From Alistipes sp. (GTDB lineage: Bacteria; Bacteroidota; Bacteroidia; Bacteroidales; Rikenellaceae): a stretch of 64,000 bases of DNA. Within the stretch, counting starts at the first letter, position 1; every line of letters starts with the position of its first letter. The position numbers and the translations under genes are program-made. Below are positions 6,659 through 42,966 of the stretch, in pieces. Where the stretch lies: the NCBI GenBank assembly GCA_017520545.1, contig JAFXFM010000002.1, positions 1 to 64,000 of the forward strand, written 5' to 3'. The notes below the pieces were generated by a model. That model was given only the letters and a program-made list of their open reading frames with translations, was not told the DNA's origin and searched no databases.

Positions 6659-7063
6659 ATGAATCGTGCTTTTTTGTGCAGCGCGATAGAGGGGTTGGTG
6701 TCTTCATACGGCTACCATTTTCAACTGAGCAATGAAGCCTACTTTCCGACCACCGTTTGTCGCTACCCTGCCGCCTTTATGCCCCAACCCGATTTTGTGA
6801 GTATGGAGGGACGAAAACGAGGTCGCATAACCTACAAAGTGGTGTTGCGACTTGCAAAACAAGGGGCAAAACTCTCTGTCCAGAAGCGAAACAACCTCAT
6901 AAACGATATGGAGCAAGAGATGATTGACCTATTTGTCGAACTTTCGCGCTCGGAGCGTATCGCCGTAGTTGATGAGCTCACCATAACGACGCTGCCTCAG
7001 GCTTTCGATGCTCACGGAGCCCTCGTAGTGGAGGCAACGGCGTTGGTTACAACCATCTTTTAA
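6659..7063 (+). CDS. small phage-type structural protein (possible tail-completion protein)
   Basis: A 134-residue soluble protein, the first gene of the phage-derived operon. It has no signal peptide or membrane segment. Its size and its alternating beta pattern ending in a long helix-plus-strand tail resemble tail-completion or terminator proteins, but no diagnostic motif is visible and I cannot assign it firmly. The segment G-R-I-T-Y-K-V-V-L-R-L at about 57-67 reads as a central strand pair. It is followed 17 bases later by the 321-residue gene. Being first after the promoter, it should be made at levels similar to the capsid gene unless processed. Confidence 0.5.
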   Translation: MNRAFLCSAIEGLVSSYGYHFQLSNEAYFPTTVCRYPAAFMPQPDFVSMEGRKRGRITYKVVLRLAKQGAKLSVQKRNNLINDMEQEMIDLFVELSRSERIAVVDELTITTLPQAFDAHGALVVEATALVTTIF

Positions 7064-7080
7064 CCTAAAATTTTAAGAGT

Positions 7081-8046
7081 ATGAAAATTGAGAAATTGTC
7101 CAACAACTTTACACCTCGGCACGAGAGTATCTGCTTCGAAATCGACTCCGAAAGCGAGGTGCCGGCAGACCTTACGGTGGAGATTATCGAGGCGACGTCG
7201 GGGGAGGTCGTAGCTACACAGTTACTACGCAACACCACCACAGCAACGGTGAATATCGCCCCATATATCGCCCGTATCGGCGACCTCGCACCCTCAACTC
7301 ATCAGCGAGTGAGTTTTATAGAGGCGCCAACCGCCGCCTACAAAATCCGCATCGGCGAGGTGGAGTCGGAGGAGGTGGTCGTTTCGGTTAATCGCAGCGA
7401 AATAGGCTCATCGCCCGCCATTATCTCTACAATGCCGACCCTTCGTCGCATCGCTCGTGGCGAGAACGACAGCGTGCTGATTAAGACAAATACGGGCGAG
7501 CCGATTTACGCCGAAATCGAGTCCGACAATGGCGAAACGCTACAATTCACCTTTATCCCGCAATCGGAACTATCGGTGCTGGTACTCTCACTCGAAGATT
7601 TTCACTACGAGGTCAGTTCGTTCGATGTGTGGCTCTACTACAACGGCTCGGTAATCGGAACAATGCACTACAAAGTGGTTGTACCACCCAAAACCGCTAC
7701 CCGATTGGCGTGGCTCTCCGACAAGGGCAGCGTCGAGCAGTACACCTTCCCGAAGTCGGTAAAAACGGCTCTTACAGCCGATAAAAGGTGTGTTTTAACT
7801 GCCGAAGGGGTATTGACGGCACACTGCCGCGCAACGCAAAAGATAACGCTTGCCTCGCGAATAGAGCCGAGGGATACAATCGAAGCGTTGGCGGAGGTTG
7901 CCACCTCAACAAAGGTGTGGGTGGAACAGAACGGAAGTTGGAGGCTGGTGGAGGTCGCTACGTCAGAGATGAACTACAACCTCTTTGGCGAGCCGAGCAA
8001 CCTGCTCTTTGAGGTCTGCCTGAGGCAGAAGGAGGTGGCACTATGA
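7081..8046 (+). CDS. Bacteroidetes phage-type virion protein, 321 aa
   Basis: A beta-rich 321-residue protein without signal peptide. Its middle carries R-L-A-W-L-S-D-K-G-S-V-E-Q-Y-T-F (about 214-229), which resembles the WLN-x-x-G-G-x-x-x-Y-x-F pattern I know from structural proteins of Bacteroidetes phages. Its stop overlaps the next gene's start in an ATGA arrangement (8043-8046), so translation of the two is coupled. It pairs with the 789-residue protein downstream, as such proteins commonly do in these phages. Likely a tail-tip or baseplate-associated part. No enzymatic motif is seen. Confidence 0.55.
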   Translation: MKIEKLSNNFTPRHESICFEIDSESEVPADLTVEIIEATSGEVVATQLLRNTTTATVNIAPYIARIGDLAPSTHQRVSFIEAPTAAYKIRIGEVESEEVVVSVNRSEIGSSPAIISTMPTLRRIARGENDSVLIKTNTGEPIYAEIESDNGETLQFTFIPQSELSVLVLSLEDFHYEVSSFDVWLYYNGSVIGTMHYKVVVPPKTATRLAWLSDKGSVEQYTFPKSVKTALTADKRCVLTAEGVLTAHCRATQKITLASRIEPRDTIEALAEVATSTKVWVEQNGSWRLVEVATSEMNYNLFGEPSNLLFEVCLRQKEVAL

Positions 8047-22286: not shown

Positions 22287-22331
22287 AGTGTAGTTTTTAG
22301 GTTTTGATTTTAGGTTTTTAGGTGGAAATGG

Positions 22332-32111: not shown

Positions 32112-32181
32112 AAGCTTTTGTTTTAGGTTAATAATTGGTTTATTGCGCTTGTAACTTACTAATAATCAACATTTTAAACCT

Positions 32182-38718: not shown

Positions 38719-38749
38719 TGAAGATTAAAACTACCTAAACTTCTTTTGT

Positions 38750-41002: not shown

Positions 41003-41028
41003 AGGCTACACCTTATATACTAATAGCA

Positions 41029-41059
41029 AAAGACCTTCCAAGTGGGAGGTCTTTTTTTT
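41029..41059 (+). terminator. terminator of the phosphate transporter gene
   Basis: AGACCTTCC pairs with GGGAGGTCT around AAGT, followed by a run of T and then a long run of G. Confidence 0.88.
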
Positions 41060-41086
41060 GGGGGGGGGCATTTTGTGCCAAACAAG

Positions 41087-41164
41087 AAAATCGCCCCGCA
41101 GCATACTTGTCGTATGTGAGGAGCGATTTATTGAAAGTTGGTGCAAAATTCACCAATCAGAATG
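41087..41164 (-). repeat. 78-bp two-hairpin repeat, copy B
   Basis: Five differences from 32426-32503. It directly abuts (9 bases) the 3' end of RNA copy 1 on the minus strand. Read on the minus strand the first hairpin is followed by TTTT, so it could stop leftward transcription from the RNA locus. Confidence 0.7.
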
Positions 41165-41173
41165 TTCTTAAAC

Positions 41174-41270
41174 AAAAAAAATGAGGTCTTCGGAGGTGAT
41201 TCGACTCACGAGAGAGCACCTCCCGTAGTCTTAGTAGCCCAATGCTACAACCTTCCGATTTCCTCAACCG
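41174..41270 (-). ncRNA. candidate structured RNA, copy 1 (97 nt)
   Basis: Minus-strand RNA candidate. A closing helix TGAGG/CCTCA (41266-41262 with 41186-41182) encloses a hairpin GTAGC-ATTGG-GCTAC (41248-41234) and a long stem GGAGGTG...CACCTCC (41223-41192), and is followed at once by T8. Copy 2 lies exactly 319 bases away without gaps. Of the seven differences in the shared 89 bases, six make three exchanged base pairs in the GTAGC helix (GCGAC/GTCGC in copy 2). No ORF fits both copies. I do not recognise the family. Confidence 0.7.
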
Positions 41271-41275
41271 AACGC

Positions 41276-41492
41276 AAACCGAGTGCAATATCGACGAAAA
41301 ACATTTGGAACTCCGAAGGAGAAAAATGAGTTGCCGACCATTCAGTCAAATTCGTTTGAACTGAAAAGTCGGCAAATTATTATCCATTGTGTAGCAATGG
41401 TAAATGTTTTGAGGAGATTTTACCGAGGTGCAGCCGAGGAAGGGAAACTCTGTTTCGCCAACCGAGACCCAGCCAATCGGTCACACACGGGC
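41276..41492 (-). other. hairpin-rich spacer between the two RNA copies
   Basis: Contains CTCC-gaa-GGAG (41311-41321), a 45-base hairpin TTGCCGAC/GTCGGCAA with inner TTCAGT/ACTGAA and CAAA-TTCG-TTTG (41331-41375), CCATTG/CAATGG (41384-41400) and GGTAAA/TTTACC (41399-41424). No convincing gene. The density of stems suggests that the whole stretch is one transcript with the flanking copies. Confidence 0.5.
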
Positions 41493-41589
41493 AAAAAAAA
41501 TGAGGTCTTCGGAGGTGATTCGACTCACGAGAGAGCACCTCCCGCAGTCTTAGCGACCCAATGTCGCAACCTTCCGATTTCCTCAACCA
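41493..41589 (-). ncRNA. candidate structured RNA, copy 2 (97 nt)
   Basis: Same fold as copy 1: closing helix TGAGG/CCTCA (41585-41581 with 41505-41501), hairpin GCGAC-ATTGG-GTCGC (41567-41553), stem GGAGGTG/CACCTCC (41542-41511), then T8 (41500-41493). It is the copy nearest the promoter at 41633-41663. Minus-strand orientation is supported by both the promoter and the U run. Confidence 0.7.
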
Positions 41590-41632
41590 ACCTAAAACTA
41601 CTAACCTAAAATGAACCTTAAAACTTCGAGTG

Positions 41633-41663
41633 CAAAGATAAGGGTTTTTGAAATACTGTGCAA
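41633..41663 (-). promoter_or_regulatory. promoter of the RNA locus
   Basis: On the minus strand TTG (41663-41661), a 20-base spacer, TATCTTTG (41640-41633). Predicted start near 41626, about 37 bases upstream of copy 2. No protein gene lies downstream on this strand before 41.0 kb, so its product should be an RNA. A shorter echo (TTGCACTCG) precedes copy 1 at about 41286. Confidence 0.7.
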
Positions 41664-41819
41664 GTTTTTTATTAAAAAATTTTAATTATTTTTTGAAAAA
41701 ATTTCTTTCGTCTTCATAATCGCCTGATTATCCGAGCATTACAATTTAGAAAAATTTTAACAACTATTTATCGCAAAACGATAACCTCTCGTTTATTGTG
41801 AAAAAATTTGGTTAAGGTA
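41664..41819. other. AT-rich intergenic stretch
   Basis: Between the RNA promoter and the recombinase promoter. Contains long A and T runs (41665-41760) and no gene, repeat or stem that stands out. Confidence 0.6.
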
Positions 41820-41850
41820 TTGCATTTTTGCACAATAATTTCTATATTTG
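41820..41850 (+). promoter_or_regulatory. promoter of the xer recombinase gene
   Basis: TTG (41820-41822), a 20-base spacer, TATATTTG (41843-41850). Predicted start near 41856. This rules out the TTG-initiated longer reading at 41848 and supports ATG 41908. Confidence 0.72.
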
Positions 41851-41907
41851 TATAGGTTCGGAGTAGAGGCCACGGCGTCCGTCTTTTTAATAAAAGGAGA
41901 GTCAGCT

Positions 41908-42874: not shown

Positions 42875-42966
42875 GAACCGACGACAAACCGAGAGCAGAG
42901 GGCGCTTGCGCACTTTGCCGAGGTGCGAAGGAGGAAAAGCCCACAAAGTGGGGTTAAAACGGAAAA
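42871..42966. repeat. dispersed intergenic repeat, non-coding copy
   Basis: Relative of the repeat that forms the methyltransferase C-terminus at 18217-18328. Here it is between xerC and hpf with no gene in it. Starts GCGGAACCGACG and ends GTTAAAACGGAAAAC. Confidence 0.75.

Follow-up and report, generated by a model that had tools for sequence, protein, structure and literature searches.

The window, that is, the whole 64-kb stretch of DNA that was analysed, carries two copies of a repeat on its minus strand, at 41173-41279 (copy A) and 41492-41598 (copy B), with a spacing of 319. A gapless alignment of the copies revealed seven differing positions within the shared block, six of which are three exchanged pairs in one 5-bp helix (GUAGC/GCUAC versus GCGAC/GUCGC); the seventh, an A to G change, retains pairing in the predicted fold (A-U to G-U). 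This confirms an earlier note on this DNA, which had described two minus-strand copies with this spacing, seven differences and three compensated pairs. Also present, as the note had it, are the TGAGG/CCTCA helix that closes both copies, the T8 runs (41500-41493 for copy B and 41181-41174 for copy A) and a promoter of the form TTG-N20-TATCTTTG. The 93-nt spans of the two copies fold with z-scores of -3.27 and -3.36, and none of 200 shuffles was equally stable; with flanks (119 nt) the values drop to -1.56 and -1.65. On the far side of copy A, a strong hairpin with a T-run at 41028-41058 is the likely terminator of the PHO4-type transporter gene, which is convergent with the RNA. A repeat-like element with common ends (AACCGAGNGCA ... 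TTTNCCGAGGTG) and a variable interior lies between the two RNA copies, at 41277-41430, and again past the integrase gene, at 42887-42925; it occurs once in L116, likewise between its two RNA copies.

Table 1. Features of the sRNA locus and candidate target sites in the 64-kb window.
Feature	Position	Strand	Basis or Pfam result
Promoter of the sRNA, TTG-N20-TATCTTTG	41633..41663	-	Sequence; same pattern before the leader at other loci
5′ leader, 41 nt, with three seeds	41587..41627	-	Conserved word; start near 41627 deduced from the promoter
Seeds in the leader: TTTTAAGGTT; TTTTAGGTT; TTTTAGGTT	41623-41614; 41611-41603; 41597-41589	-	Sequence
Copy B, three-way-junction 3′ domain and T8 terminator	41493..41586	-	Covariance model, 98.5 bits; covariation
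Copy A, leaderless duplicate of the domain, and T8	41174..41270	-	Covariance model, 87.6 bits
AACCTAAA before TonB-dependent (SusC-type) receptor gene, start 32111	32122..32129	-	Plug and CarboxypepD_reg domains
Three ACCTAAA(A) copies before lipoprotein-like gene, start 22286	22296..22324	-	No Pfam family above cut-off
ACCTAAA before PHO4-type transporter gene, start 38750	38733..38739	+	PHO4
AACCTAAA before ORF starting at 7081	7062..7069	+	No Pfam family

The earlier note had taken the locus for a tandem pair of RNAs of about 95 nt. It had missed a conserved leader between the promoter and the domain, which lies mostly outside the interval that it described. It had also proposed no function, for which this leader now provides a candidate. 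With the leader included, copy B is predicted to be the 3′ domain of one sRNA of about 135 nt that begins near 41627, ends at 41493 and has a promoter and a leader of its own. The promoter points in the direction that had been claimed but serves copy B only: copy A has no leader, and no TTG-N17-23-TAnnTTTG was found within 220 nt upstream of it, although a weaker promoter for copy A is possible. Thus, of the proposed undescribed pair, the sRNA gene without an Rfam match stands, but the copies are not equal, the unit being leader plus domain. That an sRNA gene exists here is nearly certain, and it is probably transcribed.

In a covariance scan, a second, leaderless domain copy was detected in 6 of the 91 matched sources (95 were scanned, some too short to reveal a second copy). 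Outside the window, such copies were seen in L004, L116, L125, L008 and L005, each downstream of a full gene; in L008 and L005 the copy moreover lacks part of the domain on its 5′ side. L004 and L116 carry two domains that appear identical, which may reflect repeated duplication or gene conversion. Judging from the alignment, the fold of copy A was kept or came from another strain, because copy A diverged with compensation.

The RNA is ordered as leader, closing helix (GAGG/CCTC, taken from folds and outside the covariance model), a helix UCGG-N-AGGU/ACCUCCGA, a variable hairpin, UAAGAC, a hairpin topped by GGUGCUC, GUCGAA and the terminator. Out of 137 loci, 70 with GGTGCTC and a recognisable 3′ end were kept, and 44 of those built the covariance model. 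RNAalifold placed 21 pairs on the 44 sequences, 13 of them with two-sided changes. Among 97 model-aligned rows, an alignment that is fitted to the model and hence favours its structure, 97.1% of the cells were paired, 18 of the 21 pairs had two-sided changes, and the covariation score was 0.547, versus 0.224 for shuffled and at most 0.124 for slid structures. Pure chance was rejected, as covariation is far above that of the shuffled and slid structures, and the proposal of selection on RNA structure is borne out both by the compensated pairs and by family-wide covariation. One group of loci, including L012, L014 and L016, lacks the T8 after the closing helix and has instead a GGGGTGGTTCCC block with a terminator further downstream, so that the RNA may be longer there. 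The domain also carries GAAUCACCUCCGA at 41508-41520 (minus strand), paired in the model, which we take to resemble the 3′ end of 16S rRNA. The CACCUCC within the domain, likewise paired in the model, is a candidate anti-Shine-Dalgarno mimic.

The promoter and the leader are strongly conserved. TTG-N17-23-TAnnTTTG precedes the leader at all 137 distinct loci, versus 99 of 10,560 random 70-nt windows. The first 17 nt of the leader are identical in 130 of the 133 parsed loci, although the named loci come from an exact-pattern scan (at least 119 stretches), so that conservation within that pattern is inflated; GAAGTTTT, at the leader start, is outside the search pattern yet within the near-invariant 17 nt. 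The leader repeats read UUUUA(A)GGUU, in three copies. An extra 14-nt AGTAGTTTTAGGTT unit was observed in the leader of L117 and at G290:C1:1285272-1285304 and G344:C21:17151-17183, and the number of seeds therefore varies. The predicted mean unpaired probability over 70 sequences was 0.53 for the leader versus 0.35 for the domain, which makes the leader only moderately open. A coding leader was rejected, given in-frame stops, no ATG and a T-run after CA that ranges from 2 to 5 in length among loci. A short class of RNA has the same leader followed by the terminator hairpin alone; when the 137 distinct loci were sorted, 22 were short, 93 long and 22 unsorted, and the distance from leader to T-run is 40-51 nt in 21 of the 22 short loci.

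Nothing in Rfam 15 matched the window above the gathering threshold, in line with the earlier statement that no family was recognised. At E values up to 10, the region 41003-41900 gave five weak matches, none of them plausible over the leader or either domain copy; a tRNA/tmRNA search also gave none. By similarity, the RNA was found in 31 of 61 related genomes, all 31 among the 37 of its own genus; the 24 from the order's other families gave none. A 19-nt leader word, allowing up to two mismatches, was found in 114 of 150 family genomes and 14 of 22 genera (3 of the 14 rest on two-mismatch matches, possibly chance), versus 2 of 150 for a reversed control word; there were 0-3 leader copies per genome, usually one to three. 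The leader was not found in 14 genomes of other families of the order. Among named genomes, the exact leader pattern occurred in at least 119 stretches, and every one of the 80 titles listed names Alistipes, Tidjanibacter or Rikenellaceae. With strict filters, the covariance model found only the source genome (1.93 Mb, 24 contigs, 92% complete) among 247 genomes of the order; these filters missed leader-bearing genomes of the same family. No match to the leader was found in IMG/VR viral contigs, nor to the full RNA in phage records. This is an sRNA family of the Rikenellaceae; no member was found in the genomes sampled from the order's other families. A literature search returned no description of this RNA in the portions of the papers available, and it is apparently undescribed so far. 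A large catalogue of structured-RNA candidates from the human microbiome could hold it; in its accessible part the catalogue includes HMP2_39, which is mostly from Alistipes but lies 49 bp upstream of L20 (PMC8040213).

We considered whether the RNA could be a housekeeping or protein-binding structural RNA, 6S-like or similar, with a leader conserved for contacts with polymerase or another protein and no seeds. The usual one to three leader copies per genome, the strong promoter and the wide conservation would suit such a role, and no 6S RNA turned up at another locus of this genome. The 6S model (RF00013) had no match in the window or the genome, a silence that says little, as the model matched 5 of 14 controls, Bacteroides ihuae not among them. 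However, 6S RNA is a long hairpin, unlike the short three-way junction here, and such a role leaves the target motif described below unexplained; we regard it as improbable. Less credible still, and very improbable, is that the RNA acts in cis, as leader or terminator of the gene next to it, or belongs to a mobile repeat, even though the RNA ends in a terminator and copy A adjoins the repeat-like element. The longest ORF within 900 nt downstream at 15 loci was on the same strand in seven, on the opposite strand in seven and missing in one. Ten downstream ORFs searched against Pfam gave PHO4 (below the cut-off), glutamate dehydrogenase, DAO, PepSY-like, MFS, DUF3298, GDPD, DUF819 and two without a family. 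A cis-acting leader was rejected because the strand and family of the downstream gene vary among these loci.

The complement of the leader seeds is ACCTAAAA and AACCTAAA. With the sRNA loci masked, 1.02 Mb of Rikenellaceae DNA contained ACCTAAAA 12 times around 606 gene starts versus 0.52 expected, and AACCTAAA 11 times versus 0.55; both are within roughly the top twenty enriched 8-mers near these starts. In the interval from -30 to -5 of the 558 starts left after removal of duplicate genes, they rank first and second among 168 permutations of the same composition (8 and 7 occurrences; mean 1.1), with 0-1 in two windows further upstream. Ten of 18 ACCTAAA sites lie at -20 to -13. The complement of the first repeat, ACCTTAA, has a smaller excess (5 versus a mean of 1.1).

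The same signal was sought across genomes with the pattern AACCTAAAN{6,13}ATG and a reversed control. We found 1523 versus 748 matches in 114 leader-positive family genomes, 395 versus 350 in 36 leader-negative family genomes, 4016 versus 5032, and thus no excess, in 146 genomes of other families, and 11 versus 4 in the source genome. At the level of genomes the difference in excess between leader-positive and leader-negative has p = 3e-5, with related genomes treated as independent; at the level of genera it is weak (p = 0.076; 11 versus 8 genera, with leader self-matches subtracted and three genera with only two-mismatch leader matches excluded). Several leader-positive genera show little or no excess, among them g26 (observed/control 1.24) and g189 (1.35), and the leader-negative g175, g181, g184 and g185 reach 1.4-1.8 with small counts.

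Of 86 sites of this pattern from five leader-positive genomes, 68 opened an ORF of at least 100 aa, versus 14 of 60 from three genomes outside the family, which also differ in base composition. The former comprised all 11 sites of the source genome, 18 from G303 and 17 distinct from G023 (all except leader self-matches), 20 of 24 from G400 and 20 of the 24 listed (36 in all) from G378; the latter were 20 each from G109, G125 (of 27 listed or so) and G086. A start resembling a signal peptide was seen in 59 of 73 distinct target proteins versus 187 of 606 in the background, and a lipobox in 31 of 73 versus 74 of 606. The rule used was a crude one of our own, and the background, taken from the first ATG of each ORF, is biased low, which favours the target reading. 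Pfam assigned to the 73 candidates 11 CarboxypepD_reg-type, 6 STN, 3 SusE, 4 MFS_1 and 2 GH26 matches, and one each of melibiase, sulfatase and CstA. Most proteins encoded behind the motif sites thus seem to be exported or to serve in transport, such as SusC/SusE-type proteins, sugar transporters and CstA. The sequence data establish the gene and its structure, the repeats in the leader, the existence of the family, and both the enrichment and the position of the complementary motif.

The strongest predicted duplex with the leader (-31.7 kcal/mol) is at the gene for a GH43-like lipoprotein in L082 (start 4056, plus strand), where the upstream CAACCTAAAACTTCTAACC is the complement of the leader at 18 of 19 positions. 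Whole-leader duplex energies at 558 starts showed no excess over 60 shuffled leaders; with 541 starts and 300 shuffles, an equally low top-ten mean was obtained in 46 of 300 and the counts were reached in 85-156 of 300. Duplexes at -14 or lower were seen in 350 of 606 windows inside genes versus 255 of 558 starts, so that gene starts are not favoured. A search of the source genome for long near-complementary leader sites (two 21-mers, up to three mismatches) found only the sRNA gene itself. The regulatory signal rests on the short motif, which could have another use.

The sRNA could be real while AACCTAAA before start codons is an independent element for translation or protein binding, complementary to the leader for some other reason, or the UUUUAGGUU repeats could bind a protein as a sponge. 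The non-significant duplex-energy tests fit an independent element, as do the ratios in the four leader-negative genera set beside those of g26 and g189, and three similar single-stranded repeats would suit a protein too. Against an independent element, the motif is the exact complement of a leader sequence repeated three times, and the pattern shows no excess outside the family. We consider this alternative rather unlikely, though a serious one.

We favour, with moderate confidence, a trans-acting sRNA with three seeds that would control translation of mRNAs for carbohydrate uptake, transport and envelope or surface proteins. An RNA of about 135 nt would be transcribed from a promoter of the primary-sigma type, and the three UUUUA(A)GGUU seeds of its leader would pair with AACCUAAAA in the last 30 nt upstream of the start codon. 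Pairing would most likely hinder initiation of translation, as has been published for FopS at SusC mRNAs (PMC11697453) and for GibS (PMC7366714), in the sections of these reports available. The three-way-junction domain and the U-tail would terminate and stabilise the RNA, and the domain may bind a protein; the repeated seeds may give several contacts on one mRNA with several motifs, and copy A would be a leaderless duplicate that retained the fold. That the RNA is transcribed, that it pairs with these mRNAs in the cell, that it represses them instead of activating them, and what its domain does are inferences.

By analogy, the best reading is that the sRNA would work like FopS and GibS of Bacteroides, to which it is likened by description and not as a member. 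In the available text of its report, FopS of Bacteroides thetaiotaomicron comprises RNAs of ~65-70 nt with 14 members (12-15 copies per genome), bound by the RRM protein RbpB, and its main targets are SusC-type mRNAs, at the translation initiation region (PMC11697453). A canonical promoter of the sigma-ABfr type, a conserved 5′ seed region, paralogues with a common 5′ part and, as predicted here, SusC-type targets are shared features, whereas here there are 0-3 leader copies per genome, a larger structured domain and one seed present three times. A paralogue set as large as that of FopS was not found in the 150 family genomes. No RRM_1 (PF00076) protein was detected in the source genome (92% complete), and the control, Bacteroides ihuae, gave a match. 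The conserved, largely unpaired 5′ region of FopS and GibS has its counterpart in the leader described above. Targeting of SusC-type mRNAs at the start region is paralleled in silico by the CarboxypepD_reg-type candidates (11 of 73), with a duplex-energy test that is not significant.

GibS of B. thetaiotaomicron, of about 145 nt, is similar in length and, as far as the accessible part of its report goes, also has a conserved and largely single-stranded 5′ region (GibS 1-38), hairpins, a terminator and seed pairing at start codons; it differs, compared by description, in a non-canonical promoter and two distinct seeds (PMC7366714). Rfp18 of Flavobacterium psychrophilum is likewise a conserved Bacteroidota sRNA with predicted targets among mRNAs of secreted proteins, and its deletion lowered two protease mRNAs, but it pairs via its third stem-loop, and the part of the report available describes no repeated 5′ seed (PMC9723704).

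We suggest tentatively, as a wider reading that may or may not hold, a regulon common to the Rikenellaceae, in which one triple-seed RNA would read AACCUAAAA as a short "address". This motif would have spread among mRNAs for carbohydrate uptake, transport and the cell surface, within their regions of translation initiation, and several seeds could engage one mRNA with several motifs. Since there would be no RRM chaperone, FopS-like logic would then have arisen separately or been rebuilt. In the sRNA papers found, within the parts available, post-transcriptional control in the Bacteroidota is described from few Bacteroides and Flavobacterium RNAs; the present work adds a family-wide RNA whose structure is defined, whose seed is a simple repeat and whose predicted targets carry a testable motif. 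If the wider reading is true, it would be a second, apparently RRM-independent case beside FopS, and control of nutrient uptake in Alistipes and its relatives, a gut family, would become directly testable.
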